DNA from: Burkholderiales bacterium
GTDB lineage: Bacteria > Pseudomonadota > Gammaproteobacteria > Burkholderiales > Burkholderiaceae_C
Assembly (NCBI GenBank): GCA_947372465.1
Contig: CANBTT010000001.1
Coordinates: 1 to 64,000, forward strand
Length of the DNA: 64,000 nt
Direction: 5' to 3'
Below the pieces are notes generated by a model. It saw only the letters and a list, made by a program, of their open reading frames with translations. It did no database searches and was not told where the DNA came from. The first letter of the stretch is position 1. Each line of letters opens with the position of its first letter. Positions 43,309 to 60,549 of the stretch are shown piece after piece. The position numbers were made by a program, and so were the translations under genes.

Positions 43309-44304
43309 TCACATTCTTTCCATTTTGAGTGTGTTGACCAAATTGTTCCACTTGTCAATTTCATTGGACAAGAGGTCTCTCAAGTCCTCAGGTGAACCGC
43401 CGCGAGAGTCGATCCCCACTTCCAAGAACTTTTGCTTGACATCGGGCATGTTCAAAATCAAATTGACTTCCTTGTTCAAACGGTCCACGATGGCTTTGGG
43501 TGTTTTGGCGGGTGCTGCAATGCCGTTCCATGCCATCACGTCATAGCCTTTGACGCCACTCTCGTTGATCGTGGGCACATCTGACAGTCCCTTGAAGCGG
43601 TTGCCAGAGGAGACCGCAAGCGCTTTGATTTCACCACTCTTGATCAGCGACATCGCAGGCGAGATGATCTCAAAGGCAACAGCAACGTCCTTGCTTTTCA
43701 AAGCCATCATGAGAGAAGGTGTGGTCTTAAAAGGCACAAGCGTTGTGTGCAGTCCAGCCATGCTGACAAAGAGGTTGGCCGACATGTGTTGACCGCTTCC
43801 AATGCTCACCGAACCCACATTGTATTTTTCTGGGTTCGCGCGTGCTTTGTTGATGAAGTCCTGAACATTTTGAATGTCTGAGTTTTTGTCCACCAGCATC
43901 AAGACGTCAAAGAAGCCCATGGCAGAGATCGGTACAAAATCCTTCTTGATGTCGTAGGGGAGTTTCTTGAACAAGGCCTGGCTCACCGCGTTGCCATAGT
44001 TCATGTGCAGCAGTGTGTAACCATCGGGATCGGCTTTGGCCACCGTTTCACCGGCCACGATCCCTCCAGCACTTGGGCGGTTGTCCACCACCACTTGCTG
44101 ACCCAATGCGTCTGTGAGTTTTTGAGCCACAAGGCGTGCTGTGATGTCGGCCACACCGCCTGCACCGTAACCCAGGACCAATCGAATGGGCTTGTTGGGG
44201 TAGTTTTGTGCATTTTGCGCCCCAGCGTTCAAGCCCAATAAAAGAGCGAAACCGATGGCGGTGATGGACTTCAAAGAGTTGAGCATAAATGAGGTTTTAT
44301 TCAT
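43309..44304 (-). CDS. Bug family solute-binding protein (orphan) 2
   Basis: This 331-residue periplasmic receptor is started at 44304 (MNKTSFMLN), where a GAG ribosome site lies just upstream and a signal peptide ending at LNAGAQN follows. The extended frame from 44373 overlaps ubiX. Family marks are YPNKPIRLVLGYGAGG, then RPSAGGIVAGETVAKADPDGYTLL and GIAAPAKTPKAIVDRLNKEV. It lies 44 bases after ubiX in a transcript with ubiD, so it probably imports the carboxylate that the decarboxylase handles. Confidence 0.88.
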   Translation of the reverse strand: MNKTSFMLNSLKSITAIGFALLLGLNAGAQNAQNYPNKPIRLVLGYGAGGVADITARLVAQKLTDALGQQVVVDNRPSAGGIVAGETVAKADPDGYTLLHMNYGNAVSQALFKKLPYDIKKDFVPISAMGFFDVLMLVDKNSDIQNVQDFINKARANPEKYNVGSVSIGSGQHMSANLFVSMAGLHTTLVPFKTTPSLMMALKSKDVAVAFEIISPAMSLIKSGEIKALAVSSGNRFKGLSDVPTINESGVKGYDVMAWNGIAAPAKTPKAIVDRLNKEVNLILNMPDVKQKFLEVGIDSRGGSPEDLRDLLSNEIDKWNNLVNTLKMERM

Positions 44305-44348
44305 GGCGGTTCTCGGTGTTAAATGTTGATAAATGCAGTGACTTGCAA

Positions 44349-45068
44349 TCACTTCTTGCCCATGCCAGCCCACCTTGTGACCATCGATGTTTCAATGTCA
44401 AAGAGGTCCAAGGCTCGACCAACACTGTGGTTGACCATGTCATCGAGTGTTTTCGGTCTGGCGTAAAAAGCGGGCATGGGCGGCATCAAAATGGCGCCGT
44501 TCTCACTGGCTTGTGTCATGGCTTTTAAGTGTCCCGCATGCAGGGGCGTTTCACGCACCATCAGCACCAATCGACGTCTTTCTTTGAGCACAACATCGGC
44601 CGCTCTTGATAAAAGCGAGGTCGTCATGCCGTAAGCGATTTCAGACAAAGAGCGAATGGAGCAAGGCGCCACGACCATGCCCATGGTCTTGAAAGAACCC
44701 GAGGAAATGGTTGCACCAATGTTTTTGGCATTGTGAACCTGTGTGGCCAGGCTTTGAACCTCCTCAATGCTCATCTCAAGCTCGGTGGCCAAAGTCATTT
44801 TGGCCGAGTCGCTCATGACCAAATGGGTCTCAATGTCTGAGTGTTGCAACACTTGCAAAATTCTCACCCCGTACACGATGCCAGAGGCCCCACTGATGCC
44901 CACAATCAAACGCCTGGGCTCATGCGATGAGGGGACTTTGGCGCTTGTTTTTTTGACCCCTTGAGTGCTTGCACTCTTTGCTGCCTTGCTGGAGGGCCCT
45001 GCCACCTTTGGCTTTTTGTTGGAGGTGATCAACTTGTCTTCCTGTTGCGTTTTGAAATTATTGTTCAT
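44349..45068 (-). CDS. ubiX: UbiX family flavin prenyltransferase with N-terminal extension
   Basis: UbiX makes prenylated FMN, the cofactor of UbiD decarboxylases, from FMN and dimethylallyl phosphate. The FMN-binding start RRLIVGISGASGIVYGVRIL begins only at residue 52. Later motifs are MVVAPCSIRSLSEIAYG near 134 and RRRLVLMVRETPLHAGHL near 162. The first 50 residues are a Lys/Ser-rich low-complexity tail, which is absent from normal UbiX (about 190 residues). No start codon exists between the tail and the domain, so the tail seems real. It overlaps the ubiD-like gene by 11 bases. Confidence 0.92.
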   Translation of the reverse strand: MNNNFKTQQEDKLITSNKKPKVAGPSSKAAKSASTQGVKKTSAKVPSSHEPRRLIVGISGASGIVYGVRILQVLQHSDIETHLVMSDSAKMTLATELEMSIEEVQSLATQVHNAKNIGATISSGSFKTMGMVVAPCSIRSLSEIAYGMTTSLLSRAADVVLKERRRLVLMVRETPLHAGHLKAMTQASENGAILMPPMPAFYARPKTLDDMVNHSVGRALDLFDIETSMVTRWAGMGKK

Positions 45069-46689
45069 CGGGGCGGAACTTGCTTTCCGCCTTGACGTCG
45101 TTTCTTTGTTGCTTCAAACTGATCAAACCATTTTCCAAGTAACGGCCTGTGGCCGCTCTCTTTGCGGCCTCGTCCCACTGGGGCAACCAGTCGCCCAAAG
45201 AGTAACCAAACCAAGGGGCTTGGGGGCGGAGTTTGGGCAGACCCAACTCTTCCCAAATCTCTTTGGATTTCTCCATGTATTCACGCGTGGGCAAGGCCAA
45301 TGGGGGCATGTCTGACTTCATGGTCGCATCCATGAGCAAGGTCGAGTCCTCTTCGCCGTCGTTCTCTCGCTTGGGTCCATGGCCTTGGCCACGGTGATCC
45401 AAGGTTTGCACATCAACGGTTGGGTTCATGCGGTAGGCCATGGCCCAAAGAATCGCATCGGCATTGTCCGGATCGATGTCATCGTTCACAGCAATACAGA
45501 TCTTGCCACAGTCACCCTTGAAGAAGGCCGCACCGTAAAGGGCACGCCAAACTTCGGTCTTGGGCATTTTTCTGTCCACCGTGATCACCGTCACTCTCAA
45601 CAAACCGGTGAGCGGCTCATGGAGGGAGACTTTTTGCACGCCACGAATTCCCAAGGTGTTTTTTAGGTATGACAAGAACAAGGGCTCATAGGCCACGCGC
45701 TTGATCACGCTGGACTCGGATGGGGCCACTTGGCTGATGTAGGAAGGAATCACGGGCTTGAAGCGGTGGGTGATGGCCGTGATCTTCATCGGCAAATTGA
45801 ATTCTTCTAGCGCCACGTGACCGTGGGACTCACCAAAGGGTGCCTCGGGCTCTAAAAACTCCAAATCAATCTCACCCTCGATCACAATTTCAGCCTGAGC
45901 GGGCACTCTGAGTGGCACGCTTCGGGCATTGATCACTTGAATGGCCACGCCAGCCAAACCACCCGCCACATCAAACTCATCCATGCCGATGGGCAATTTT
46001 TGCGGTCCCATGAAGGCCACCAAAGGAGGACAGCCCAAAACGACAGCACATGGCATGGTTTTGTGACCGGCTTTTTTCCACTCTTGATAATGCAAATAAC
46101 CACCCGCACCGCCCACACGAGTGGCCATTCTGACCACCATGCGGTCAGGCGCCTTCAAGGCACATCGGTAGGTGCCCATGTTTTGAACCCCCGTCACAGG
46201 GTGCTTGGTGATGACGTTCGTGGCAGTCAAGGTCGGCGCACTGTCAAAACCGGGTGTGGAGATGGGAATGGGCAACATGTCCAAACCCTTGCCTTCACCG
46301 ATCAAATCAGCCCCTTCGTGAATGACCTCTTGGCAAACGGCCTTGTTCACCAAGACAGGGGGTATGGGATGCTGAATCGCTTGGTCCCATTTCTTTTGAA
46401 TATCTTCCACTGCGCAACCCATGCCCACACCGTAAATCGCACGGTTGGCCGCCAAGGCACCCACCACCACGGGGATATCGTACTTTCTGCCTTGCGCATT
46501 GACGATATTGGTGAACAAAAATGCTTTTCTCTCTGCCTCGTCCATTCCACCTACAAACTGCCACCTCACCAAGGGGTGCAACTCAGAATCTTTGTCAATG
46601 GCGCGATCGATGACTTGCAACAAACCGTGCTGCTGAAGAGACTTTAAGTGATCGTGTAAATCTGGGTATCCGGTGTGTTCTTGACTCAT
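45058..46689 (-). CDS. UbiD family decarboxylase 1
   Basis: This 543-residue prenyl-FMN-dependent (de)carboxylase acts on an unsaturated or (hetero)aromatic acid. The catalytic set is in place: Arg175 (GTYR), Glu282 and Glu287 in PEAPFGE, corresponding to Arg173, Glu277 and Glu282 of Fdc1. It starts with LHDHLKSL and HPLVRWQF, unlike ubiquinone-pathway UbiD, and resembles catabolic members. It is coupled to ubiX and follows the LysR gene on the same strand. The substrate is inferred to be an imported aromatic or furan-type acid. Confidence 0.88.
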   Translation of the reverse strand: MSQEHTGYPDLHDHLKSLQQHGLLQVIDRAIDKDSELHPLVRWQFVGGMDEAERKAFLFTNIVNAQGRKYDIPVVVGALAANRAIYGVGMGCAVEDIQKKWDQAIQHPIPPVLVNKAVCQEVIHEGADLIGEGKGLDMLPIPISTPGFDSAPTLTATNVITKHPVTGVQNMGTYRCALKAPDRMVVRMATRVGGAGGYLHYQEWKKAGHKTMPCAVVLGCPPLVAFMGPQKLPIGMDEFDVAGGLAGVAIQVINARSVPLRVPAQAEIVIEGEIDLEFLEPEAPFGESHGHVALEEFNLPMKITAITHRFKPVIPSYISQVAPSESSVIKRVAYEPLFLSYLKNTLGIRGVQKVSLHEPLTGLLRVTVITVDRKMPKTEVWRALYGAAFFKGDCGKICIAVNDDIDPDNADAILWAMAYRMNPTVDVQTLDHRGQGHGPKRENDGEEDSTLLMDATMKSDMPPLALPTREYMEKSKEIWEELGLPKLRPQAPWFGYSLGDWLPQWDEAAKRAATGRYLENGLISLKQQRNDVKAESKFRPDEQ

Positions 46690-46857: not shown

Positions 46858-47805
46858 CTAGGCCTCGTTTGCTTTCCAGCCCATGCTGATGGAGAGCTGC
46901 TCAATGGATTGCTCGGTGTCCTTGCCTTCTTTGAGCAACCATTCACAAAAATTCTCCAAACTGGGCATGGCCATCAGGTTGCTTGGGAAGTTGGCGTAAT
47001 ACATTCTTTGCCTCGCACCGGTCAAGCCAAAGGGCGCGCACAAGCGACCCGCGATGATGTCATCGGCCACCAAAAACAAAGGCACCAACACCACCCCCAG
47101 CCCCTCAATGGCGGCTTGAAGCGCAAAATACATTTGCTCAAACTGCAAAGTACTTGGGTGAGAGGATTCGCTCCAATGGTTTTGATCCCCCCCCTCTCGC
47201 CATTGCTGCCAACTCACGGGCTCAGTGTCGTAGCTGATCAAGGTGTGGTGCTCCAAGGCTTTGGGGCTTTTTAAGGCGCCGGCATCAAGCAAATCGGGAT
47301 GACAAATGGGCACAATCGTCTCCGTCATGAACGGCACACTGCGCATGTTGGCAAAGGGCTGCAAAGCACCTCGGATGGCCAAATCGTATTGCCGGGCCTC
47401 AAAATCAATGCCCTCTGTTGACGTGGTCAACTTCACCTCCAAGCCCTCGCGACGGCGCTGAAAGGCAGAAATTCGTGGAATCAACCAACGCATCGTGAAC
47501 GTGGGCGGCGCGTTCACACGAATCACCATCGGCTGCGTTTGGTCCATGATCTGCATGGCCGTGACCGAGATGCGGTCCAAAGCGGGCGTCACCGAGGCCA
47601 TGAGGGTCTTGCCCTCCTCGGTCAACAAGAGCTGAGACTGGTTGCGCTTGAACAAGGACACCCCAAGCCAACTCTCAAGCAAGGCCACTTGCTTGCTGAT
47701 GGCGCCGTGGGTCACAAACAGCTCCTTGGCCGCCTTGCTAAAGCTCACATGCCGGGCCGCCGCCTCAAAGGCACGCACCGCATTCAAAGGAGGCAATTTC
47801 CTCAC
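46858..47805 (-). CDS. LysR family transcriptional regulator (GcvA-like)
   Basis: This regulator of about 315 residues starts VRKLPPLNAVRAFEAAARH, the typical GcvA-subgroup N-terminus. I chose the GTG at 47805, nine bases from a GGAG site (47815-47818). The GTG at 47811 is too close. The winged helix-turn-helix contains SFSKAAKELFVTHGAISKQV. The C-terminal effector domain covers about 90-300. It sits between the two arms of the catabolic island, divergent from the molybdenum hydroxylase operon and upstream of ubiD on its own strand, so it probably controls both. Confidence 0.88.
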   Translation of the reverse strand: MRKLPPLNAVRAFEAAARHVSFSKAAKELFVTHGAISKQVALLESWLGVSLFKRNQSQLLLTEEGKTLMASVTPALDRISVTAMQIMDQTQPMVIRVNAPPTFTMRWLIPRISAFQRRREGLEVKLTTSTEGIDFEARQYDLAIRGALQPFANMRSVPFMTETIVPICHPDLLDAGALKSPKALEHHTLISYDTEPVSWQQWREGGDQNHWSESSHPSTLQFEQMYFALQAAIEGLGVVLVPLFLVADDIIAGRLCAPFGLTGARQRMYYANFPSNLMAMPSLENFCEWLLKEGKDTEQSIEQLSISMGWKANEA

Positions 47806-48160
47806 AAGCACTTACTCCAAAAATAAACCACGCACAGCAAGGCATTGGGGCTCCCCATGCACAAAGCATTTAAAAGAGCAATGATTATCCACCAGGCTGT
47901 GAGATTTTCTCCCGTGAAATTGAAAAATATTTTTAGAATTATGAGCTCGGCTGAATAAAATCAGCAAAACCTCCTGAAATTGAACCCAAGCCAATGTGTG
48001 AGTTTTCGTCTTCATTTCTCATTAAAATATGCACCATGGGTTCAAGCCTTGCCTTTGAGCCATTTTGGAATTGAACGCCCTCAATCTTCACCTCTTTTCA
48101 CTTTGGTCTTGCGCCCACCCCAGTGCGCAATGACTTTAAGACACAACGGGATACCCATTC
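47806..48160. other. 355-base divergent control region between lysR and the molybdenum hydroxylase operon
   Basis: The region is AT-rich around 47880-47980 and holds a 12-bp perfect palindrome AAAAATATTTTT at 47923-47934. It is the expected place for LysR binding (T-N11-A sites) and both promoters. I cannot single out one operator. Confidence 0.5.
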
Positions 48161-49057
48161 ATGAAAGCAGCACCCTTTGATTACGTCTTGGCCCAAGACT
48201 TGGATGAAGCCTTGAGCTTGATTGACGAACATGGCCCAGACGCCAAACTGATCGCGGGAGGCCAAAGCTTGGTGCCCATGATGGCCATGCGCTTGGCCAG
48301 GCCTCAGTTGCTCGTGGACATCAACCGTTTGAGCGAACTCAAACACCTTGACATTCAATCTGATCGCGTGTCGATTGGGGCCGGTGTTAGACAAAGAGAC
48401 GTTGAGTTCAATGCTCAACTGCACCAACACGTGCCGCTTTTAAAGCACGCATTGGCCTGGGTGGGGCACATTCAAACCAGAAACCGAGGCACCATTGGGG
48501 GCAGCTTGGCCTATGCCGACCCCTCAGCAGAATTGCCTTTGAGCGCCCTGCTGCTGAATGCAAAGATTCATTTAAAGAGCAAAACCGGCGGTGAGCGCGA
48601 GGTCATGGCCGAAGATTTCTTTCTTGGCCCCATGTTCACAGAAATCGCCGACAACGAATGCCTGAGCACCATTGAGTGGCCCATCTGGGCTGGCGCCAAC
48701 GTGGGTGTTGCCTTTGAAGAAACGGCCATCCGCAAGGGCGACTTTGCCATGGCATCGGCCGCTTGTCAGATCCAGTTGGACCCGGCTGGCGTGATCCAAC
48801 GCGTGAGTTTTGGCTTGGGCGGCGTTGACGGCACGCCCCGAGTCTTTCCTCATTTGGCCACACAAATGGTGGGTCAAAAAATCAGCGACTTGACCCTGTC
48901 CGACATTGCCCAAGCGGCCATCCAAGAATGCGATCCGGGCAGTGACATGCATGCAAGCAGCGCTTACCGCAAACACTTGGCGCAAGCCCTTTTGTGCCGC
49001 GTGACGCACCAAGCCGCCGAGCAGGCCCTGGGTCGCACCATCAACTTCAAACACTAA
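48161..49057 (+). CDS. FAD-binding subunit of xanthine dehydrogenase-family hydroxylase (CoxM-like)
   Basis: This 298-residue medium subunit carries FAD between the iron-sulfur and acceptor sites. The two FAD motifs are AGGQS at 32-36 and TIGGS at 111-115, at the same positions as in CoxM. It is the first gene of the operon in the order medium-small-large, as in cox clusters. The partner genes follow at once. No extra Fe-S insertion of the 4-hydroxybenzoyl-CoA reductase type is evident. Confidence 0.92.
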   Translation: MKAAPFDYVLAQDLDEALSLIDEHGPDAKLIAGGQSLVPMMAMRLARPQLLVDINRLSELKHLDIQSDRVSIGAGVRQRDVEFNAQLHQHVPLLKHALAWVGHIQTRNRGTIGGSLAYADPSAELPLSALLLNAKIHLKSKTGGEREVMAEDFFLGPMFTEIADNECLSTIEWPIWAGANVGVAFEETAIRKGDFAMASAACQIQLDPAGVIQRVSFGLGGVDGTPRVFPHLATQMVGQKISDLTLSDIAQAAIQECDPGSDMHASSAYRKHLAQALLCRVTHQAAEQALGRTINFKH

Positions 49058-49119: not shown

Positions 49120-49635
49120 ATGAACAACAAACTGCCCGTTGCCATCACCGTCAATGGCGTGCAATACGAACGTGATGTAGAACCCAGAACCACTTTGGTT
49201 GATTTTCTAAGAGACACGTTGGCCTTGACCGGCACGCACGTTGGATGCGAACACGGCGTGTGTGGCGCCTGTTCGGTGCTCTTGAACGACGACCCTGTCA
49301 GATCGTGCTGCATGTTCGCCGTTCAAGCCAATGGCATGCATGTCACCACGGTCGAAGGCCTGAGCGTTCAAAGAGGTCAAATGAGCGAACTGCAAGACGC
49401 CTTTTGTGAAAAGCATGCCCTTCAATGCGGTTACTGCACACCCGGCATGCTGGTCTCTTGCTCGGCCCTCTTGAAGGACAACCCCAAGCCCACCACCGAA
49501 GAAGTCAGAGAGGCCATCAGTGGAAATTTGTGTCGTTGCACCGGCTACCAACAAATCGTAGACGCCGTGATGTACGCCACCAGAGACAAAGCGTCAGACA
49601 CAGACGCATCGAAAGTGAGCCAACATGTCAATTGA
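49120..49635 (+). CDS. Two-[2Fe-2S] subunit of xanthine dehydrogenase-family hydroxylase (CoxS-like)
   Basis: This 171-residue small subunit has the plant-ferredoxin cluster cysteines 43, 48, 51 and 63 (CEHGVCGAC) and the second cluster cysteines 103, 106, 138 and 140 (CGYC, CRC). It passes electrons from the molybdenum subunit to FAD. Its stop overlaps the large-subunit gene by 11 bases. Confidence 0.94.
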   Translation: MNNKLPVAITVNGVQYERDVEPRTTLVDFLRDTLALTGTHVGCEHGVCGACSVLLNDDPVRSCCMFAVQANGMHVTTVEGLSVQRGQMSELQDAFCEKHALQCGYCTPGMLVSCSALLKDNPKPTTEEVREAISGNLCRCTGYQQIVDAVMYATRDKASDTDASKVSQHVN

Positions 49636-52033
49636 AAAAACCGCTTTTAAATACATTGGACGCCACCGCCGTGCCGTTGAGCACAAGCGTTTTGTCGTGG
49701 GTCAAGGCCATTACGCGGCCGACATCCACCGTGCGGGCATGCTCCATGTCGCCTTGATTGCCAGCCCTTACGCGAGTGCCCATATTTTGAGCATCGATGG
49801 CACCGACGCTTTGGCCATGCCAGGCGTGCACGCCGTGCTGACGGGCGACGAGCTCTTTGCTGCCATCGACCCCATCTTGCCTGGTGTAGACGCCCCCCAA
49901 GTCACACGCTATCCCTTGGCCATTGGGACCGCACGTTACGCGGGCGAATGGGTGGCGGCTGTTGTGGCCGAGACCCGCGCTTTGGCCGAAGATGCCGCAG
50001 AGTTGGTCAACATTGAGTACGAAGTGCTTGAACACATCGTCAATCCAGAGAAAGCCCTTTTGGCAGGCGCGCCCCTGGTTCACCCCAAGCACGGCTCCAA
50101 TGTCATCTTTCACAGAAAATTTGTCTGGGGGCCCGTTGAGGAAGACTTCAAAGCCTGTGAACACCAATTGAGCTACCGCGTCCACTGGGCGAGAAACTCC
50201 ACCGTGCCCATTGAGACCTTCGCTGTCGTTTGTGAATGGAACGATGCAATGTCCGTCTTGGATGTCTGGGCCTCTATTCAAATGCCCAAGTTTCCTGACC
50301 AAGTGGCCAAAGCGCTTCGACTCCCAGGCAACGCTGTCAGAGTTCACTTTGATGTGGACGTTGGCGGCAGTTACGGGGTCAAGCGGGGCTTGAAGCACAC
50401 CATTCTTGTGGCCTATTTGGCCAAAAAATTGGGCCGCCCTGTTAGACTGATTGAAGACCGTTTAGAGAACATGCGCGGGGGCGACATGCAAGGGCCTGAC
50501 CGCATCTTTGATGTGACCCTTGGCTTTAACGCGGGAGGCGAAATCCTCAGCATGAAAATGCATGCGCTGGAAGACATTGGCGCCTACTCGGGCCGCTCAC
50601 CCCTGCAGCTCGGCAAACCCGTCGGAGCAATCGTGGGCCCTTACAAAATCAAAAGCGTCGAATACGACGCCAAAGCGGTGTTGACCAACAAAACACCCCA
50701 AGAGGCGGTCCGTGGTTTTGGTCAATCCCCAACCAACTATGCCATTGAAACCGGCATCGATAAAGTGGCAAGGTTCCTCAAGATGGACCGCATCGCGCTT
50801 AGAAAACTCAACATGATTGAGCACGATCAATTCCCCTACCTCATCCCAAGTGGCACCTCCTACGACTCGGGCGACTATGCCGTGGTGCTTGACAAGGCAC
50901 TGAAGGAGGCGGGACTGGAGCGTTTGCTCCAGCAACGCGACGCGCTCAGAGCCCAAGGCATTCACGCGGGCGTGGGCATCTCCACCTGCCTTGAGCCTTC
51001 AGGGGGCAACTCCTCCTTTGAGCCCTTGTTCAATCCCAAAAATGAAACCACCACCTGGATGGACTCGTGCTTGGTCAGGATCGATTTATCGGGCAGCATC
51101 ACCGCCCTCATGGGCACCTCGTCCTCTGGACAAGCGCACGAAACCTTGGTGTCCACCGTGGTTGGAGAAATTCTTGAGCGCGAGCCCGATGGCATTCGTG
51201 TGCTCCATGCAGACTCCTTGAACGCCTTGCCCTCCAACAGCCCCGTGGGTTCTCGCATGGCGATCATGCTCGGGGGGGCGGCAGCGGGAGCCGCGAAAAA
51301 AATTCGCGCCAAATTGATGCTCATCGCTGCGCACAACATGAAGTGCTCAGTCGACGAGTTGGCTTTTGAGGGGGGAGGCGTGTTTGAGAAAAACAAACCT
51401 GAACACCATATGTCTTGGGATGCGTTGGTAGAAATTGCTCACCGCAAATACCATTGCCTGCCCCCCAACATGGAGCCCGGACTGCAAGAGAAATTTGTCT
51501 GGGAAGTGCCAACAGGTGGTGATTTACCCACCGCAGATGGGCGCGTGCAGATGTACCCTTGCCACTCTTTTGAGGCCCATGTGATTTTGGCCAGCATCGA
51601 TCCGGGCAGTTTCAAGGTGCAAATTCACCGCTACGTCTGCGGCCATGACTGCGGCGTGATGATCTCTCCCGATGTCGTGCACGGCATGACCTACGGGGGC
51701 ATTGCCCACGGTCTGGGTGCGGCCCTCATGGAGAAATTTGCTTTCTCCGATGATGGACAACTCTTGGCGGGCACTTTCATGGATTACCTCTTGCCAAGTG
51801 CGCATGAGGTGCCTGAGATCACGATTGTGGACCATTGCACACCCTCCCCCTTGACGGAGTTTGGACAAAAGGGCTCAGGAGAAGCCGGCTACTTGGGCGC
51901 TCCAGCGGCCATTGCGAGCGCCATCAATGACGCCTTGGCCCCCATGGGCGCGAGCATCGATCACTTGCCCATGACGCCTCAAGCGATTTGGAGTGCCGTG
52001 GAGAAGTCCAAGCACCCCCAAGAAGTGGCTTGA
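49625..52033 (+). CDS. Molybdenum-cofactor subunit of xanthine dehydrogenase-family hydroxylase (CoxL-like)
   Basis: This 802-residue large subunit hydroxylates its substrate with water at a Mo centre. The active-site loop reads AVRGFGQ at 361-367, closer to the RGFG loop of xanthine and aromatic hydroxylases than to the Cys-containing loop of form I CO dehydrogenase. The base glutamate is Glu753 in QKGSGEAG. A substrate on a ring (heteroaromatic acid, CoA ester or similar) is therefore more likely than CO. It ends 56 bases before the hydrolase gene. Confidence 0.9.
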   Translation: MSIEKTAFKYIGRHRRAVEHKRFVVGQGHYAADIHRAGMLHVALIASPYASAHILSIDGTDALAMPGVHAVLTGDELFAAIDPILPGVDAPQVTRYPLAIGTARYAGEWVAAVVAETRALAEDAAELVNIEYEVLEHIVNPEKALLAGAPLVHPKHGSNVIFHRKFVWGPVEEDFKACEHQLSYRVHWARNSTVPIETFAVVCEWNDAMSVLDVWASIQMPKFPDQVAKALRLPGNAVRVHFDVDVGGSYGVKRGLKHTILVAYLAKKLGRPVRLIEDRLENMRGGDMQGPDRIFDVTLGFNAGGEILSMKMHALEDIGAYSGRSPLQLGKPVGAIVGPYKIKSVEYDAKAVLTNKTPQEAVRGFGQSPTNYAIETGIDKVARFLKMDRIALRKLNMIEHDQFPYLIPSGTSYDSGDYAVVLDKALKEAGLERLLQQRDALRAQGIHAGVGISTCLEPSGGNSSFEPLFNPKNETTTWMDSCLVRIDLSGSITALMGTSSSGQAHETLVSTVVGEILEREPDGIRVLHADSLNALPSNSPVGSRMAIMLGGAAAGAAKKIRAKLMLIAAHNMKCSVDELAFEGGGVFEKNKPEHHMSWDALVEIAHRKYHCLPPNMEPGLQEKFVWEVPTGGDLPTADGRVQMYPCHSFEAHVILASIDPGSFKVQIHRYVCGHDCGVMISPDVVHGMTYGGIAHGLGAALMEKFAFSDDGQLLAGTFMDYLLPSAHEVPEITIVDHCTPSPLTEFGQKGSGEAGYLGAPAAIASAINDALAPMGASIDHLPMTPQAIWSAVEKSKHPQEVA

Positions 52034-52089
52034 GCCGTGAGGATATGATCGAGGCACTGTTTTTTTATCACGCTTGAATCGACTTGAAC

Positions 52090-52917: not shown

Positions 52918-53645
52918 GTGATCAAATCATCGTCCAACAAGTCGGAAGAATTTTAAAAATCACCTTTAACCGCACCGAAGACAACGGTGTGTCTGACAGC
53001 ATGGCGGCCGCCTTGTCAAAGGCCGTCTTGAGCGCCCACGAAACCTCTGACATGGTGCTGTTGGACAGCGTGGGGCCAGACTTTTGCACGGGTCGCGTTC
53101 GCGATGCGGGCCACCCCCCTTCACCAGAAGCCTACACGCGGCGCGCAGAATACGACTCCATCTTCAACAGCTACAAAGCCCTGCGCTCATGTTTGGTTCC
53201 AGTGGTGGGCGTCTTAAGAGGCAAAGTCATGGGCTTTGGAACAGCGATTGCGTCTCTTTGTGATGTGACCTTCGCCAGCGACACCAGCACCTTCAACATC
53301 CCAGAGATCGCTCACAATGTGATGCCCACCATGGTGATGTCTGCCATTTATGACCGCATGAATCGCAATGCGATTTTGTGGATGGCCTACTCAGCCGACT
53401 TCATTGACGCGCACAAAGCCCTGTCTTTTGGCATCGTGAGCAATGTGGTGAGCGACGACAAGCTTGACGCTGAGGTACAAAGATTTTGTGATCTGCTCCT
53501 CTCAAGACCCAGGCCAGCCATTTTGGGCTTGAAAGAGTATTTGAGAGTGGCTCCTCGCATGGACGAGCAAGGTGCGATTGACTATGCAAGAAGCTTGCAC
53601 TCGATGGTCAATACCGCTCAAGAGATGAAGAAAAAAGCCCACTGA
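52914..53645 (+). CDS. Enoyl-CoA hydratase/isomerase-fold protein (crotonase) in the hydroxylase operon
   Basis: This 243-residue crotonase has the oxyanion regions FCTGRVRDAG near residue 60 and RGKVMGFGTAIASLCD near 102, and PEIAHNVMPTM near 126 with a conserved Glu. In the furoate pathway a hydrolase or crotonase-type enzyme releases 2-oxoglutarate from its CoA ester, so a thioester hydrolase role is conceivable. It is coupled to the lactonase-like gene by an ATGA overlap. Confidence 0.8.
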   Translation: MSDQIIVQQVGRILKITFNRTEDNGVSDSMAAALSKAVLSAHETSDMVLLDSVGPDFCTGRVRDAGHPPSPEAYTRRAEYDSIFNSYKALRSCLVPVVGVLRGKVMGFGTAIASLCDVTFASDTSTFNIPEIAHNVMPTMVMSAIYDRMNRNAILWMAYSADFIDAHKALSFGIVSNVVSDDKLDAEVQRFCDLLLSRPRPAILGLKEYLRVAPRMDEQGAIDYARSLHSMVNTAQEMKKKAH

Positions 53646-53799
53646 TCTTTGCACAGGGGTAAGATGGTTTTGAGTCAAACGGCCTCAAGCGACTTTGATG
53701 GCAGACCAACCCTTCTGACCCCTATGTTGGCCTCTGTGGGGCCTTGCCTTGAGAAAAGTCTGCCCCAGTTTTTTTAGTTTTTTAAAGAAGTCAATCCAA

Positions 53800-54474
53800 A
53801 TGGAAATCATCGGAAAAAAAATCATCCCCTCCAAGCGTGAAACGGTTTGGCATGCTTTGAACGACCCGGTCATCTTAAAGCTGTGCCTCCCAGGGTGCGA
53901 GTCGGTTGAAAAAATGGGTGCTGACGAGTTCAAAGTGATCATCAAAACGGCGATTGGTCCTTTGAGAGCGCGCTTTCAAGGCTCCTTGAAAATGACCGAA
54001 GTCAACGCGCCTGAATCGTGCGTGATGCTCTTTGAAGGCCAAGGCGGCGCGGTGGGCTTTGGCAAAGGCTCCTCAAGCGTCACACTGCGCACCGTGGACG
54101 GCGGCACCGAGTTGTCCTACGAAGCCAAAGCTCAAGTGGGTGGAAAACTGGCACAAGTGGGTTCACGTTTGATTGACTCCGTGGCCAAGAAAATGACCGA
54201 TGACTTCTTCAAAGCGTTTCAAAATCAACTCAACCCCCCACAAGTGCCCCCCAGCACAGCGGTTGTGAGCCAATCAACTGGCCACGCGGTCTCGGCCAGT
54301 GCCCCTCAAGCCAGCCCATCCAAAGAACAAGCGTTGGCGCACTCGACAGCCACAGCGTCAAGTGCTCCCGACACGTCTCATGCCAGTGAACCCATGGTGC
54401 CCGCTTGGTGGCTTGCACCAGCGGCCATTTTGGGTGCCTTTTTGGCCATCGCTGGCGCAAGATTTATTCATTGA
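53800..54474 (+). CDS. CoxG-like SRPBCC protein with C-terminal membrane anchor
   Basis: From the ATG at 53800 (AAAGAAG site nine bases upstream) this is a 224-residue protein. The SRPBCC domain covers about 1-150 and begins with KKIIPSKRETVWHALNDP. It is followed by a Ser/Ala/Pro-rich linker and a single hydrophobic span (WWLAPAAILGAFLAI) near the C-terminus. CoxG proteins tether CO-dehydrogenase-type enzymes to the membrane and its quinones. Here it would couple the Mo hydroxylase to the respiratory chain. Confidence 0.88.
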   Translation: MEIIGKKIIPSKRETVWHALNDPVILKLCLPGCESVEKMGADEFKVIIKTAIGPLRARFQGSLKMTEVNAPESCVMLFEGQGGAVGFGKGSSSVTLRTVDGGTELSYEAKAQVGGKLAQVGSRLIDSVAKKMTDDFFKAFQNQLNPPQVPPSTAVVSQSTGHAVSASAPQASPSKEQALAHSTATASSAPDTSHASEPMVPAWWLAPAAILGAFLAIAGARFIH

Positions 54475-54530: not shown

Positions 54531-55544
54531 ATGAAAGACCTCACCCGTTTAAACGCCCCTAGAAGCACTCGTCGCCAAGCCCTCAAAGGCCTCTTGGCCG
54601 GCTTGGGCTGCGTCTCAGTGGGCAGCAGCTTTGCGCAACTCGCGAGCGCTAAAGTGGTCAAAGTCTTTGTGGGCTTTCCAGCCGGACAAGCCACCGACAT
54701 GGTCACGCGCGTCATTGCTGAAAAGCTCAATGCTTTAACAGGGGACAACTTCATTGTGGACAACCGCCCCGGTCAAGGTGGCAGCATGGCCTTGTCTCAA
54801 TTGGCGAAATCCCCACCCAATGGCACGGTGATGATGATGGCCCACATGTCGGCCTTGGACACCAACCCACACATCTATAAAACGGTCGGTTACGACACCT
54901 TGAAAGATTTTGAATCGGTGGGCCTTGTGGGGGACTTGCCCTTTGTTTTGGTGTGCAACCCCAATTTGCCAGCTCAAAACCTCAAAGAACTCATCGCTTA
55001 TGCCAAGAGCAATCCCGACAAATTGACCAATGCCTCTTCTGGCAACGGCACGGTCTCGCATTTGGCCATGGAAGAGCTCAAGCGACGTGCCGGTCTAAAA
55101 GTCACCCACATACCCTACAAAGGCAGTGTGGCTGGTTTGACCGATGTCGTGGCCGGCAACGTCTCCATGGCCCTTGAAACCGCCTCAGCCGTGCGCGCCC
55201 ATGTGGAATCGGGTCGACTCAGGGCCATTGCAACAGGCAGCAGCAAGCGACTCGGCGGTATTTTCTCGCAAGTGCCCACCTTCAAAGAGCAAGGCATGAA
55301 TGACTTTACCGCGGTGACATGGCTCATGCTTTTGTTGCCCCAAGGCAGTCCCAAAGCCCTTGTTCAGTCGACTTACACCGCCTTGATGAGCGTGCTCTCC
55401 ACCCCTGAGATGGATCAAAAGCTCAATGCTTTGGGTTTGCAACCGCGCTTTAGCACCTCGCCTGATGAGGCCACACAGTACATGAAAAGTGAGTTTGCGT
55501 ATTGGGGCGACGTGGTCAAGCGCAGCAATGTTGAAAAAGAATGA
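54531..55544 (+). CDS. Bug family solute-binding protein (orphan) 3, Tat-type signal
   Basis: This 337-residue receptor has a twin-arginine start (STRRQALKGLLAGLG at about 12-26) rather than a plain Sec signal. The mature domain has VFVGFPAGQATDMVTRVI, NRPGQGGSMALSQLAKSPPNGT, and KVTHIPYKGSVAGLTDVVAG. It lies inside the hydroxylase operon between coxG and the ABC binding protein gene, so its ligand is probably the pathway substrate. Confidence 0.88.
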   Translation: MKDLTRLNAPRSTRRQALKGLLAGLGCVSVGSSFAQLASAKVVKVFVGFPAGQATDMVTRVIAEKLNALTGDNFIVDNRPGQGGSMALSQLAKSPPNGTVMMMAHMSALDTNPHIYKTVGYDTLKDFESVGLVGDLPFVLVCNPNLPAQNLKELIAYAKSNPDKLTNASSGNGTVSHLAMEELKRRAGLKVTHIPYKGSVAGLTDVVAGNVSMALETASAVRAHVESGRLRAIATGSSKRLGGIFSQVPTFKEQGMNDFTAVTWLMLLLPQGSPKALVQSTYTALMSVLSTPEMDQKLNALGLQPRFSTSPDEATQYMKSEFAYWGDVVKRSNVEKE

Positions 55545-55632: not shown

Positions 55633-56685
55633 ATGAAATTAGGCCTCAACCCAAGGACGCGGCGCCTCTCGCTTTGCATCCTTGCACTCTTGCAAAGCGC
55701 CGTCTTTGCACAAACCCCCCTCCCTTTGACCTATGACAAAGCCGATCGCGTTGAAAAAATCACCGCACTGGCAAAAGCTGAAGGGGGTTTGACGGTTTAC
55801 ACCGCTTCTAGGCCTCAAGATTTGGCCGCCCTTTTGGCGCCCTTTGAAGCCAAAACGGGCATCAAGGTCAAAGCGTGGCGCTCGGGCAGCGACAATGTGC
55901 TTCAACGTGTGGTGAGAGAGTCCAACTCCAAACATGCAGACGTGGATGTGATCATGACGCCAGCAGGCGAAATGCTGGCCTTGTCTCGAGAGCATTTGCT
56001 TCAACCTGTTTATTCCCCCTATCAAAAAGATTTGATCCCAAGTGCCGTGGTGGCGCATCAAATGTGGTCCAGCATGTTCATGAATGTCGTGGTTCAGTCC
56101 TACAACACACAAGCCTTCAAAAAGGACGCCCTGCCCAAGAGTTTCAATGATTTGTTGGACCCACGCTTTAAGGGCAATTTGGGCATCGAGTCCAAGGCCG
56201 AGGAGTGGTTTGCCAAAGTCACCCAATCCATGGGGGAAGAAAAAGGCGTGGCCCTTTTTAAAGAGATTGGTCAAAAAAATGGCTACTCCACCCGCCTTGG
56301 TGTTTCTTTGCTGCACAACTTGGTGATTGCTGGTGAAGTGCCTATTGGGCTCACCGTTTACATAGACCTGCCAGAAAAAGACAAAAAAGCCGGCAAGCCC
56401 GTGGATTGGTTTGCGCTTGAGCCCGTGGTCGCACAAGGCTTCAACATTGGTGTCGCCTCCAAATCGCCCCACCCTTACAGCGCTCTTCTTTTTTACGATT
56501 ACTTGCTTTCGCCTGAGACACAAAAGTTGCTCACCAGCTTGGGTTATTACCCCACCAGCAGCAAAGTGAGCAACCCTTACCCCGATCTAAAAATCAATGT
56601 GATCGACCCCACTTACATCATCGATAATTACGCCAAATGGACCAAGCTCTATGAGCAAAATGTGACCAAGATTCCCAAAAACTAA
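55633..56685 (+). CDS. Family 1 extracellular solute-binding protein (Fbp-like, orphan)
   Basis: This 350-residue periplasmic protein has a Sec signal (about 1-26, ending VFAQT) and a type II periplasmic binding fold: LTVYTASRPQDLAALLAPFEAKTGIKV, NVLQRVVRESNSKHADVDV and YSALLFYDYLLSPETQKLL. It resembles iron(III)- or phosphonate-type binding proteins. The ABC permease and ATPase genes are absent here. It could bind a metal chelate or the carboxylate substrate. Confidence 0.82.
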   Translation: MKLGLNPRTRRLSLCILALLQSAVFAQTPLPLTYDKADRVEKITALAKAEGGLTVYTASRPQDLAALLAPFEAKTGIKVKAWRSGSDNVLQRVVRESNSKHADVDVIMTPAGEMLALSREHLLQPVYSPYQKDLIPSAVVAHQMWSSMFMNVVVQSYNTQAFKKDALPKSFNDLLDPRFKGNLGIESKAEEWFAKVTQSMGEEKGVALFKEIGQKNGYSTRLGVSLLHNLVIAGEVPIGLTVYIDLPEKDKKAGKPVDWFALEPVVAQGFNIGVASKSPHPYSALLFYDYLLSPETQKLLTSLGYYPTSSKVSNPYPDLKINVIDPTYIIDNYAKWTKLYEQNVTKIPKN

Positions 56686-56747: not shown

Positions 56748-58562
56748 ATGAAAAAAACATCGCGAGCCAAACCAGCAACTGCAGCCAAAAAAGCCCCTTC
56801 TCGCGTCTTGCACGAACCCGCTCGCGCCTATCCTGATTTGCACGAACATTTGGCCGCGCTTGACCGCGCAGGCATGTTGATCACCGTGGACCGCGAGATC
56901 AACAAAGACACCGAGATGCACCCCTTGGTGAGATGGCAGTTCAGGGGCGGGATTGCAGAGCCCGACCGCAAAGCATTTTTGTTCACCAACGTCACCGACA
57001 GCAAAGGCCACAAGTACGACATCCCCGTGGTCGTCGGCGCGCTCGCTGCGAACCGTGAAATTTACAGCACCGGCATGGGCTGCAAAATTGAAGACATCGG
57101 CAAAACGTGGAACCACGCCATTGCCAACCCGATCAAGCCACGGGTCTTGAAAGAGGCACCTTGCCAAGAAATCGTGATCATGGGCAAAGATCTTTTGAAA
57201 CCCGGCCAAGGCTTGGACGGTATTCCTGTGCCCATCTCTTCTCCGGGTTGGGACAACGCGCCTTACACCACCTTGTCTCAATACATCTCCAAGGATCCTG
57301 AGACCGGCATTCAAAACATGGGCATCTACCGCGGCCAGATCAAGTCGCCCACGCGACTTGGCATGAACCCCTCCTTAGAAAACCAACCTGGCATTTATGC
57401 TCACTGGGAAAAAGCCAAAGCCAAGGGCGAGAAATTACCCGCTGCCGTGATCTTGGGCTGTCCGCCCTGCGTGGCCTTCACCTCGGCACAAAAACTCTCT
57501 GAAGACACCGACGAGATGGACGTGGCCGGTGGCTTGGCAGGCGCGCCCATCAATGTGGTCAAGTGCAAAACGGTTGACCTCTTGGTGCCCGCGGAAGCTG
57601 AGATTGTGATCGAGGGCTACATCATCACCAAGGACCTCGAGCCTGAGGCGCCCTTTGGTGAATCCCATGGACACGTGAACTTGCAAGAGTACAACGCCTA
57701 CATGGAGGTGACGGCCATTACAAGACGCAAGAAAGCGATTTTGACGTCCATCATCTCTCAAGTCACACCCTCCGAGTCCTCACTGATCAAACGCGTGGCC
57801 TTGGAGCCGGTCTTCACGAACCATTTGAAGCGCAACTTAGGGATCAAGGGCGTGAAACGCGTCTCCATGCACGAGCCCCTCACGAATTTGAGAAAAGTCA
57901 TCGCCGTGGTGGTGGACAGAAAAACCCCGCCCACAGAAGTTTGGAGAGCCTTGTACGGCGCCTCCTCATTGCTGCGCTCTGGGGGAAAATTTGTGATTGC
58001 CATCAACGATGACATCGATCCCGACAATGCAGATGCGCTCTTTTGGGCGATGAGTTACCGAGCGAACTATTCGCTGGATTTACAAATTTTGCACCACCGC
58101 GATCCAGGCCATGGCCCAAGAAGCGAGAGAAACCATGGAGAGGATGCATCCCTCTTGGTGGATGCCACCTTGAAGGATGACTTCCCCCCCATCGCTTTGC
58201 CCAAACGCGAGTTCATGGAGAACGCCAAGAAAATTTGGGAAGAGTTGAACTTGCCCCCACTTCGTCCTGAGGCACCCTGGTTTGGTTACTCTTTGGGCGA
58301 CTGGACCGAGAGAAATGAAATCATGGCCAAACGAGCGGTCAAGAGCGACTACTTCATCACGGGTGAAGAGATTGCCAAACAGCGCAGGTCCGATTTGCCC
58401 ATGAACACAGAGATCAAGCACCACATGGACGAAGCCTACTTTGCAAAAGCGGCCAAATCCAACAAAGCATTGGCCAAGAAAGCCCCTGCGAAAAAATCAG
58501 CTGCAAAATCAGCTGCAAAAAAGGCCGTGCCCAGCAAAAAGGGCGCCAAGTCCAAAAAGTAA
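56748..58562 (+). CDS. UbiD family decarboxylase 2 with Lys/Ala-rich ends
   Basis: This 604-residue protein is a paralogue of UbiD 1, sharing LHEHL, HPLVRWQF, CPP and PEAPFGESHGHV. The catalytic residues are Arg195, Glu300 and Glu305. Unlike UbiD 1 it has a basic N-terminus (MKKTSRAKPATAAKK) and a 35-residue Lys/Ala/Ser tail after about residue 570. It depends on the single ubiX in the other arm for prenyl-FMN. Its place in the hydroxylase operon suggests a second decarboxylation, or a carboxylation, in one pathway. Confidence 0.88.
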   Translation: MKKTSRAKPATAAKKAPSRVLHEPARAYPDLHEHLAALDRAGMLITVDREINKDTEMHPLVRWQFRGGIAEPDRKAFLFTNVTDSKGHKYDIPVVVGALAANREIYSTGMGCKIEDIGKTWNHAIANPIKPRVLKEAPCQEIVIMGKDLLKPGQGLDGIPVPISSPGWDNAPYTTLSQYISKDPETGIQNMGIYRGQIKSPTRLGMNPSLENQPGIYAHWEKAKAKGEKLPAAVILGCPPCVAFTSAQKLSEDTDEMDVAGGLAGAPINVVKCKTVDLLVPAEAEIVIEGYIITKDLEPEAPFGESHGHVNLQEYNAYMEVTAITRRKKAILTSIISQVTPSESSLIKRVALEPVFTNHLKRNLGIKGVKRVSMHEPLTNLRKVIAVVVDRKTPPTEVWRALYGASSLLRSGGKFVIAINDDIDPDNADALFWAMSYRANYSLDLQILHHRDPGHGPRSERNHGEDASLLVDATLKDDFPPIALPKREFMENAKKIWEELNLPPLRPEAPWFGYSLGDWTERNEIMAKRAVKSDYFITGEEIAKQRRSDLPMNTEIKHHMDEAYFAKAAKSNKALAKKAPAKKSAAKSAAKKAVPSKKGAKSKK

Positions 58563-58584
58563 ACCCACTGGTGCGCTGAAAGAC

Positions 58585-58620
58585 GCCAAGACTGCATTGC
58601 GCTGTCTTGGCCTCTTCTAG
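58585..58620 (+). terminator. Probable terminator after UbiD 2
   Basis: GCCAAGAC (58585-58592) and GTCTTGGC (58604-58611) form an 8-bp stem with an 11-base loop, followed by CTCTTCT. The T run is modest. It lies 22 bases past the ubiD stop, separating it from the MFS gene. Confidence 0.55.
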
Positions 58621-58721
58621 CGATGTCTCTCCTTTGAGCCCCTTAACAGGGCATTGAAGCAAAGCTTAAGCACCCCCAATTGCACAAAGGTTTCCCAAAG
58701 GCCTTGACTTCTACCTCAGCC

Positions 58722-59963
58722 ATGACGACCTCAACCACCCAGTCCTTTGCCGCACTCAAGAACAAGGGCTTTCAAAAGCAATTGGGCACCTTTGTGCTGG
58801 CCATGATGGCCGACAACATTGAACACGTGATCAGTTACTGGATCATGTTTGAGAAGTTCCATTCGCCTGTCCTCGGTGGCTTTGCAGTGGTGTCGCACTG
58901 GTTGCCGTTTTTACTCTTTTCTGTCCCAGCGGGTGCATTGGCCGAACGCTTTGATCCCAGGCGCCTGATTCAGTTGGGCATGCTGATGTTCATTGCAGCC
59001 TCCCTGGGCTGGGCTTACTTCTTCGTCACAGACTCCTTGACACAATGGGGCGCCATGGTGCTTCTTGTTCTCCATGGTTGCTCTGGTGTCTTGTGGCACA
59101 CCTCCAGCCAAATGCTCTTGTACGACGTGGTCGAAGCACCCCTTTTACCCAGTGCCATTCGACTCCTGGCCACGGGGCGCTACCTCAGCCTGTTGGTGGG
59201 TCCCGCCGTGGGGGGATTGATCCTTTTACAAGTGGGTCCCATTGAGGGCATGGTGCTGAATGCTTTCTTTTATGTGCCCACCATTTGGTGGCTTTGGAAG
59301 GCTCCTTATGGGCATGTCTACAACGGGGTCACCGTCACCTCTAGACGTGCCATCAAGGGATTGGCAGACATTCAAGCCACCTTTAAAGACATCTCCTTTA
59401 ACCCAACCCTGCTAAGCATGTTGCTCTTGGCCGGTGCAGCCTCTTTCTTTGTGGGCAACAGTTACCAAGCACAAATGCCCGGCTATGTGCATGACTTGGC
59501 TCACACCGATCAAGGCTTTGTCTACAGCATGCTTTTGGCGGCCGATGCATTGGGCGCCTTGCTCGCAGGCTTGATGCTTGAGAGACACAACTGGATCCCC
59601 AACACGCCCAAAGCCGTCCTCACCTTGGCGGCTCTTTGGTGTTTGTTTCTGGGCGCATTTGCGCTCAGCACGAATTATGTCTTGGCCTTGGTTTTGCTTG
59701 TGGGCGCGGGTTTTTTAGAGCTTGCTTTCAGCACCATGACCCAGGCCATTGTTCAATTGAATGCCCCGCCCCAGATGCGAGGACGCGTCATTGGGCTCTA
59801 CAACATGTCCTCTTTGGGGATGCGCGCTGGCTCGGGCTTGGTGGTCGGACTCACTGGTGGCATCCTTGGCATTCACGCCGCATTGGCCTTGGCATGCCTT
59901 ATTTTGTTGGTCGTTGTGGGCTTCATTTACACGAAAACCCGTAGAAAGAACAGCTTCACTTGA
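58722..59963 (+). CDS. MFS transporter
   Basis: This transporter of about 413 residues has about twelve hydrophobic helices, starting from the ATG at 58722 (MTTSTTQSF). The in-frame TTG at 58680 adds 14 non-conserved residues. The family marks PAGALAERFDPRRLIQ near residue 80 and MRGRVIGLYNMSSLGMRAGSGLVVG near 349 fit the DHA/enterobactin-exporter-like group. It could export a product or import the aromatic substrate. It follows the UbiD 2 terminator. Confidence 0.82.
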   Translation: MTTSTTQSFAALKNKGFQKQLGTFVLAMMADNIEHVISYWIMFEKFHSPVLGGFAVVSHWLPFLLFSVPAGALAERFDPRRLIQLGMLMFIAASLGWAYFFVTDSLTQWGAMVLLVLHGCSGVLWHTSSQMLLYDVVEAPLLPSAIRLLATGRYLSLLVGPAVGGLILLQVGPIEGMVLNAFFYVPTIWWLWKAPYGHVYNGVTVTSRRAIKGLADIQATFKDISFNPTLLSMLLLAGAASFFVGNSYQAQMPGYVHDLAHTDQGFVYSMLLAADALGALLAGLMLERHNWIPNTPKAVLTLAALWCLFLGAFALSTNYVLALVLLVGAGFLELAFSTMTQAIVQLNAPPQMRGRVIGLYNMSSLGMRAGSGLVVGLTGGILGIHAALALACLILLVVVGFIYTKTRRKNSFT

Positions 59964-60045
59964 GACGCAAAGCGTTTAAAGTAGAGGCAGGCCTTACAAA
60001 GCCCCTGGCACTCAGTGGGCACCTTTTCTAATCCAGAACAAACAC

Positions 60046-60549
60046 ATGATCACTCAAAAATTTGGGTTCGCACTGCTCACAGTCTTGGTGCTTGGCCTCA
60101 ACATGGCGTGCGCCCCCAAAGAGCAAAGCACGGCTGCACCCGTCAAAAGTGCTCCGGTCTTTGACACGCAGCAGTCGATCGCCGAATTGATGCAATGGGT
60201 CATCGATCCTGCAGCCGATGCCATTTGGGACTCGGTGTCATGGGTAAGCAATGAGAAAGGCACCAAAGCCAATGCCCCAAAAAACGAAGAGGACTGGAAA
60301 GCGCTGAGGGTGCATGCCAGCATCCTTGTCGAGTCGGCCAACTTGTTGATGCTAGAAGGTCGCGCCAAGGACCAAGACGTCTGGATGCAACAAGCTCGCA
60401 ATTTTGGGCTTGAGGCCAGGAAAAACTTAAAAGCCATTGAAGAGAAAAATGTGGACAAACTCTTTGATATCGGGGGTGACTTGGACCACGCCTGCGAGTC
60501 GTGTCACTTGAAGTACGCCAACTACAAAACAGAAACAACAGTCAAATAA
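60046..60549 (+). CDS. Lipoprotein with C-terminal c-type haem motif (cytochrome c'-like)
   Basis: This 167-residue protein has a lipoprotein signal with Cys22 (LNMAC). It then has a helical domain and a single haem-binding motif CESCH at 150-154, close to the C-terminus. Class II cytochromes (c' and c556) carry their haem in the same C-terminal position within a four-helix bundle. It is probably anchored to a membrane face in the periplasm. It may accept electrons from the Mo hydroxylase or reduce a terminal oxidase, but the link is by position only. Confidence 0.78.
   Translation: MITQKFGFALLTVLVLGLNMACAPKEQSTAAPVKSAPVFDTQQSIAELMQWVIDPAADAIWDSVSWVSNEKGTKANAPKNEEDWKALRVHASILVESANLLMLEGRAKDQDVWMQQARNFGLEARKNLKAIEEKNVDKLFDIGGDLDHACESCHLKYANYKTETTVK

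Follow-up and report, generated by a model that had tools for sequence, protein, structure and literature searches.

Removal of a ring carboxyl group, hydroxylation by a molybdenum (Mo) enzyme and opening of a lactone form the principle of the Hmf system, for which the gene functions, including the action of HmfA on furoyl-coenzyme A (furoyl-CoA), are given in the available part of PMC12064950; the same part lists a putative ring-opening hydrolase, 'hyd', in the Hmf cluster of P. umsongensis GO16. In the accessible part of PMC7976604, H297 of the UbiD-type protein HmfF is key to furan-type substrate specificity, and alpha and beta subunits of phenylphosphate carboxylase are named in a tree legend. 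Catabolism of lumichrome/riboflavin (LumJ, LumK/L), as covered by the available portion of PMC12746152, is a precedent for a heterocycle first losing a carboxyl group and then undergoing xanthine-oxidase hydroxylation, with pyrone hydrolysis at a later stage; it differs in its thiamine diphosphate (TPP)-dependent decarboxylase and its Rieske and extradiol dioxygenases, and no mention of UbiD was met in that portion. Here, a two-armed island of UbiD and Mo hydroxylase genes is described from the first 64 kb of contig C1 (this whole stretch is called the window) of a Burkholderiales genome of 3.05 Mb in 108 contigs. The source organism is a freshwater-type bacterium. Nothing matching the island was found by the searches made among open-licence PubMed Central papers, a scope outside which bioRxiv and most subscription journals lie.

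The island is proposed, with moderate confidence, to be catabolic for a (hetero)aromatic ring polycarboxylate and to work in an Hmf-like manner without an island-encoded CoA ligase. All genes named in the initial annotation are present in its two arms. The minus arm runs in the order LysR, UbiD1, UbiX, Bug1 and DUF4936, and the plus arm in the order MoM, MoS, MoL, ABH, ECH, CoxG, Bug2, a binding protein, UbiD2, a major facilitator superfamily (MFS) transporter and a small CxxCH lipoprotein. The enzymes and the CoxG-like protein that enter the proposal are as follows.

44349..45068, minus strand: UbiX flavin prenyltransferase, predicted maker of prenylated flavin mononucleotide (prFMN) (PF02441; NF004685, 273 bits against a cut-off of 188).
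45058..46689, minus strand: UbiD1, predicted clade-I UbiD decarboxylase (PF01977, 154 bits; tree; E-R-E residues kept).
48161..49057, plus strand: MoM, flavin adenine dinucleotide (FAD) subunit of the Mo hydroxylase (PF00941, PF03450).
49120..49635, plus strand: MoS, subunit with two [2Fe-2S] clusters (PF01799, PF00111).
49625..52033, plus strand: MoL, Mo-cofactor subunit of an HmfA-related hydroxylase (PF02738, PF20256; motif; trees).
52084..52917, plus strand: ABH, PcaD-like alpha/beta hydrolase, proposed lactone opener (TIGR02427, 195 bits; 2xua).
52914..53645, plus strand: ECH, divergent crotonase-fold protein (PF00378; alignments; model and fold search).
53749..54474, plus strand: CoxG-like protein with a hydrophobic C-terminal segment read from the sequence (PF06240, 121 bits).
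56748..58562, plus strand: UbiD2, predicted clade-II UbiD decarboxylase of 604 aa (PF01977, 177 bits; tree; model).

MoL groups with HmfA. In a tree of 26 Mo large subunits, 11 MoL, 5 HmfA and 2 plasmid relatives formed one clade (100/100) within which MoL was a separate subclade, the reference set being small and the branching order inside the clade unsettled. The long branches own_L141, own_L143, own_L144 and Np_MoL were left out of this tree, and the HmfA rows were cut to 820 residues; in a fuller tree with the long branches kept, the HmfA-like grouping was obtained at 98/99. By BLAST against the collected references, MoL was best matched by HmfA of G. kaustophilus (35% identity, 451 bits) and then of C. 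necator (437 bits), MoM by HmfB (40%) and MoS by HmfC (53%) of G. kaustophilus. MoL matched 13 NCBIfam families and remained under every cut-off, including those for CO dehydrogenase (curated profiles, 394 and 433 bits against 991 and 950), xanthine dehydrogenase (best equivalog 270 bits against 780) and 4-hydroxybenzoyl-CoA reductase. The loop QEAVRGFGQ is found in 27/27 MoL rows (duplicates counted), and the Glu of KGSGE is present; MoL thus has EAVRGFGQ instead of the AYRCSFR-type active-site loop, which we take to be the hallmark of CO dehydrogenases. A clade joining MoL to two CO dehydrogenase sequences was rejected (p=7e-5). A CO dehydrogenase identity was therefore discarded by loop motif, curated score and tree, and the placement with CO dehydrogenases that the initial annotation had named as a refuting outcome did not occur. 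In L139 (L, G and C denote loci, genomes and contigs), one of the plasmid relatives in the MoL/HmfA clade, genes for an AMP ligase and a TPP enzyme lie close by.

N-heterocycles are common substrates of xanthine-oxidase-family enzymes, which would suit another substrate class, a pyridine or pyrrole (poly)carboxylate hydroxylated by the Mo enzyme beside the ring nitrogen and opened as a lactam by the hydrolase. The best PDB sequence match is quinoline 2-oxidoreductase, and amidohydrolase and AA_synth genes stand beside MoL in the relatives L072 and L074. In the PDB searches made for the island proteins, nicotinate dehydrogenase and phthaloyl-CoA decarboxylase were weaker matches. A clade of MoL with quinoline oxidoreductase was, however, rejected (p=6e-5), and the hydrolase resembles an enol-lactonase; an N-heteroaromatic substrate is accordingly regarded as quite improbable.

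UbiD1 and UbiD2 are paralogues of 55% identity, both over the Pfam cut-off of 23.3 bits. A third paralogue (53% identity to UbiD2) lies on contig C9, and a more distant UbiD is found at C1:78020-79495. For phylogeny, 128 UbiD sequences were reduced to 70 by dropping rows shorter than 480 or longer than 719 aa, or at least 90% identical to a kept row. Two deep clades were separated by a branch supported at 100/100: clade I with 26 rows, among them UbiD1 and the C9 paralogue, and clade II with 44 rows, including UbiD2. The E-R-E catalytic residues (R195, E300 and E305 in UbiD2 numbering) are kept in 70/70 rows. UbiX adjoins UbiD1, so that the UbiD-with-UbiX arrangement of Hmf is found here, and it is 55-60% identical to the UbiX beside C. 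necator HmfF and that beside a Neorhizobium clade-I UbiD. UbiX has about 50 extra Lys/Ser/Ala-rich residues at its N-terminus, and the ends of UbiD2 are basic, Lys/Ala-rich and of very low model confidence.

The two UbiD proteins might be subunits of one hetero-oligomeric decarboxylase instead of catalysts of two steps. Heteromeric UbiD-type enzymes exist, phenylphosphate carboxylase being an example, and of 44 loci flanked by 8 kb on either side, 21 contain both deep clades. Single clades are found in many of the same loci (clade II only, 19; clade I only, 4), both island proteins keep the catalytic residues, and here they are encoded on opposite arms; the arrangement is thus considered possible, on the unlikely side. 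In the 44-locus count, L029 and L030 were scored as clade II only, though their clade-I gene is visible in L107 and L108, and the duplicates L107-L110, L117 and L118 and the loci L122-L124 and L126 were left out. Clade-II UbiDs of at most 73% identity to UbiD2 also occur without MoL in the stretch (L049-L070 and others, mostly from alphaproteobacterial metagenome-assembled genomes (MAGs)), next to TPP enzymes, FMN-dependent dehydrogenases, short-chain dehydrogenases/reductases, TauD dioxygenases or ornithine-cyclodeaminase-like proteins. Clade-I UbiDs are present on the rhizobial plasmids of L123 (Neorhizobium petrolearium) and L124 (Sinorhizobium fredii pNGR234b), L123 also carrying two Mo large subunits, CoxG, UbiX, TctC and a TPP enzyme.

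Comparative sequence data indicate that the island is real and conserved, with UbiD and MoL co-inherited. In 61 genomes (its own and 60 relatives, 37 of them, own included, of one genus and many incomplete), MoL and the UbiD family were found together in 10, UbiD without MoL in 1 (G031, 62% complete), MoL without UbiD in 0 and neither in 50, at cut-offs (MoL at least 68% and UbiD at least 52% identity) chosen after the gap in the matches had been seen. Among 369 class-wide genomes, MoL was found in 1, its own genome (E up to 1e-150), and the UbiD family in 5 (E up to 1e-120), so the island is rare and patchy. The closest named records to UbiD2 are from Burkholderiales and Comamonadaceae MAGs and from Limnohabitans sp. 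15K (83%), and the UbiD subfamily is met repeatedly in MAGs from many Alpha- and Betaproteobacteria. The Limnohabitans sp. 15K locus, L035, contains LysR, MoM, MoS, MoL, ABH, ECH, CoxG and UbiD2, together with a UbiD1 gene truncated where the fetched stretch stops. After merging L107-L110 with L029, L030, L057 and L033, 25 distinct MoL loci were available; both UbiD clades are present in the fetched stretch of 18, clade II only in 4 (L031, L057, L074, L111), clade I only in 2 (L113, L115) and neither in 1 (L125), numbers that are partly by construction as most loci were fetched through UbiD2, the 61-genome count being less biased. The clade missing from L057, L111 and L113 is encoded on a different contig of the respective genome. 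Three MAG contigs (L041, L042 and L045) are labelled Bordetella parapertussis or Chitinophaga pinensis and encode UbiD/MoL very similar to those of betaproteobacterial MAGs; these labels look doubtful.

Six HmfF-type loci were fetched for comparison, and five of them have a Mo hydroxylase (L133 Cupriavidus, L134 Geobacillus, L136 Caballeronia, L137 Burkholderia and L138 Dinoroseobacter); the Bosea plasmid locus L135, HmfF-like and with no Mo enzyme in the stretch shown, was left out of these five Hmf clusters. UbiD, the three Mo hydroxylase subunits, crotonase and CoxG are shared with the island by 5/5 clusters; UbiX is shared by four of them, LysR by the proteobacterial four and TctC by one. 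Unlike Hmf, it has two UbiDs of another subfamily, lacking the HmfF His and Arg residues discussed below, no CoA ligase in the cluster, a crotonase without the Glu144-equivalent and the HmfE C-terminal motif, a PcaD-like hydrolase, a type absent from the annotation of the five Hmf loci, and no HMF-oxidising genes among its Pfam-annotated genes. The view of the initial annotation that the island is Hmf-related and yet different is borne out.

For the ligase, the 25 MoL loci were searched by tblastn, the queries being 11 ligases and 3 CoA-transferases. An AMP-binding ligase was detected in 1/25 loci (fetched DNA only, mostly 11-22 kb per locus) against 6/6 control loci, for which non-self queries less than 60% identical were used, and is present in 5/5 Hmf clusters. 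Neither a ligase nor a CoA-transferase of the kinds searched was found in 21/25 loci, the matches being in EXT, L029 and L030 (transferase) and L113 (ligase). The lack of an acyl-CoA ligase in the window, stated by the initial annotation, extends to bases 1-100000 of the contig, and the genome-wide search that it had recommended gave 12 AMP-binding matches over the cut-off and 1 below, with 0 on contig C1. The absence of the ligase is a genuine difference from Hmf. Because of this absence, a CoA thioester would probably not be used, and the earlier suggestion of action on the free acid fits it likewise.

For lactone opening, ABH is the candidate. It is nearest to PcaD (3-oxoadipate enol-lactonase) of the beta-ketoadipate pathway in both NCBIfam and the PDB (best 2xua), yet at 195 bits it lies under the TIGR02427 cut-off of 256; no other pca gene was recognised in the island. 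S104, D223 and H250 are invariant in 14 rows (duplicates counted) and would form the catalytic triad. A lactonase candidate of one of two unrelated folds was found in 15/25 MoL loci, ABH in 11 and a LigI-like protein (relative of 2-pyrone-4,6-dicarboxylate lactonase) in 4 (L041, L042, L044 and L095) in which no ABH was found; the L041 copy scored 250 bits to 4d8l, the ABH of L039 and L040 is just 35-38% identical, and a short ABH match in L072 was left out of the count.

ECH occurs in 10/25 MoL loci, conserved at 77-97% in the other nine. It keeps Glu131, and the Glu144-equivalent is Ala111, Ala in 14/14 rows; these two Glu, pair and numbering, are presumably the catalytic pair of crotonases. 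The FxxKRxPxF-like C-terminal segment of five HmfEs is lacking in 14/14 rows, and a fold search with the ECH model returned, among the 50 matches listed, generic crotonases at 17-23% identity that suggest no function. With an incomplete Glu pair ECH is not of the HmfE type, and the thioester cleavage formerly ascribed to it is doubtful. An ACMSD-like amidohydrolase, c22, is found in 11/25 MoL loci and together with ECH in 0/25, a mutual exclusion that may reflect just ancestry. CoxG was found in 12/25 MoL loci. It is homologous to the CoxG of the Hmf clusters, where it is present in 5/5 with a Mo enzyme (fused to the HmfA C-terminus in four, a separate gene in Geobacillus); CoxG as a special extra part, as it had first been described, was for this reason rejected.

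In the proposed route, the substrate would be taken up via the MFS and/or receptor-dependent transporters. UbiX would make prFMN, and UbiD1, probably also UbiD2, would remove ring carboxyls to leave an exposed ring C-H. The HmfA-type Mo hydroxylase (MoM, MoS and MoL, with CoxG) would put a water-derived hydroxyl group on the vacated carbon, the product would tautomerise to a lactone, and the PcaD-like hydrolase would open this to an open-chain oxo-acid; the crotonase may assist by isomerisation, hydration or C-C cleavage. In a concrete version, a furan polycarboxylate would be converted to 2-furoate, 5-hydroxy-2-furoate and, by hydrolysis last, 2-oxoglutarate. 5-Hydroxy-2-furoate is the enol lactone of 2-oxoglutarate. 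A furan substrate is possible and would explain the kinship with HmfA together with the enol-lactonase.

Several observations weigh against this proposal. The counted lactonases were not found in 10/25 MoL loci, including all four from Rhodospirillaceae. In G019 (L115) and G046 (L125), which have MoL, a clade-II UbiD of at least 50% identity was not found; therefore UbiD2 is not obligatory. A ligase may lie farther away than the fetched DNA. The own genome has the 12 AMP-binding matches elsewhere and CoA-transferase genes at 67-68 kb, about 15 kb from MoL, which are also found in the close relatives L029 and L030. In L113, a gene resembling AMP ligases (25% identity, E 4e-13) stands at a distance of about 1.8 kb from UbiD1 and about 5.7 kb from MoL. 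An Hmf route whose CoA step is supplied from outside the island, by a ligase in trans or by the CoA-transferase, and in which MoL acts on a furoyl-CoA-like thioester would agree with these genes and with the action of HmfA on furoyl-CoA reported in the available part of PMC12064950. It is disfavoured by the 21/25 MoL loci with neither enzyme and by the missing HmfE C-terminal segment of ECH, and its probability is judged to be low.

The UbiD residues add to these objections. HmfF (6h6v/6h6x) is the best PDB match to the UbiD family by sequence profile and structure and has the E-R-E residues in common with it; the UbiD2 model (mean pLDDT, the predicted local distance difference test, 79.9) matched 6h6v by Foldseek at 28% identity with template modelling (TM) scores of 0.82 by target length and 0.62 by query length. 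HmfF is shorter, however, and 28-32% identical. His at index 296 and Arg at index 304 (chain numbering) are present in 6/6 HmfF sequences and also in the HmfF-like Bosea protein; in the family, the His position is Ser in 70/70, and the Arg304 position is Tyr, Leu, Met, Trp, Gln or Thr, with Arg in 0/70. We presume a functional role for Arg304 of HmfF. The His at index 296, the sole His of its stretch, we infer to be H297 in the accessible part of PMC7976604. Close HmfF orthology was rejected because of the low identity and the differing His and Arg positions, and the residues argue against furan recognition of the HmfF type.

A further objection comes from a paralogous island on C9 (L007, G000:C9:30001-50000) with a clade-I UbiD, another Mo hydroxylase, ECH and CoxG. 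It lies on the same strand downstream of the protocatechuate 4,5-cleavage genes LigK, LigI-like, LigA, LigB and a presumably LigC-like oxidoreductase, with an aldo/keto reductase and a Bug gene in between, and clusters of LigI-like, LigA, LigB and LigC-like genes recur beside clade-I UbiD in G018 (L120) and G029 (L121). The context of this relative points to benzenoid substrates there. For the island itself, a benzene polycarboxylate or hydroxylated aromatic acid could be brought to a central intermediate by the Mo hydroxylase and the UbiDs, with ABH and ECH acting after ring opening; the C9 context, the LigI-like lactonase in four MoL loci and the missing HmfF His speak for this. No ring-cleaving dioxygenase family was found among the island genes by Pfam, the Mo large subunit encoded on C9 belongs to a different clade, and MoL groups with HmfA; a benzenoid substrate is accordingly thought unlikely. 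With the UbiD residues and the C9 context on one side and the HmfA kinship on the other, no substrate is assigned to the proposed ring-polycarboxylate pathway.

The remaining genes of the island are as follows.

42987..43283, minus strand: DUF4936 protein of 98 aa, 3' of Bug1 (PF16290, 49 bits).
43309..44373, minus strand: Bug1, Bug/TctC receptor (PF03401, 203 bits).
46858..47811, minus strand: LysR regulator, first gene of the minus arm and transcribed divergently from MoM (PF00126, PF03466).
54531..55544, plus strand: Bug2, Bug/TctC receptor (PF03401, 213 bits).
55633..56685, plus strand: ABC-type extracellular solute-binding protein (PF13416 and relatives).
58680..59963, plus strand: MFS transporter (PF07690).
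60046..60549, plus strand: small putative lipoprotein of 167 aa, possible haem protein (one CxxCH and a lipobox-like cysteine, read from the sequence).

The DUF4936 gene is real but lies just outside the start of 43309 initially given to the island. The putative lipoprotein shows a lipobox-like cysteine and a single CxxCH motif in its sequence, but the reading frame gave no match in a Pfam search. The genome encodes at least 150 TctC/Bug receptors (of 162 candidates, 150 were scored, and each passed the cut-off), about one per 20 kb, whereas the TctA permease is present as a single copy in 3.05 Mb; for this reason they carry little information, and the Bug receptors, first cited as substrate evidence, were dropped from it. 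A second cluster extends from 60837-64000 of the window to about 80.5 kb of the contig and contains Bugs, an OB-fold protein, a thiolase-like protein, a carboxyltransferase, biotin carboxylase, a biotin carboxyl carrier protein, CoA-transferase A/B, a 564-aa CN-hydrolase protein, another Mo hydroxylase, an FrsA-like esterase and a 491-aa UbiD.

A wider reading is offered tentatively, namely that the island stands for a CoA-independent degradation of heteroaromatic rings spread among aquatic and other Proteobacteria, whose habitats were judged from record titles. Two UbiD clades might remove the carboxyl groups of a natural ring polycarboxylate, an HmfA-type Mo hydroxylase might act on the vacated carbon with no CoA activation, and exchangeable lactonases might open the ring. 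If true, the Hmf principle would extend to free acids and to substrates requiring two UbiDs, a recurrent UbiD subfamily would gain a function, and furan- or pyrone-polycarboxylates of dissolved organic matter could be mineralised in this way. Bacterial attack on polycarboxylated ring compounds would thereby become testable.

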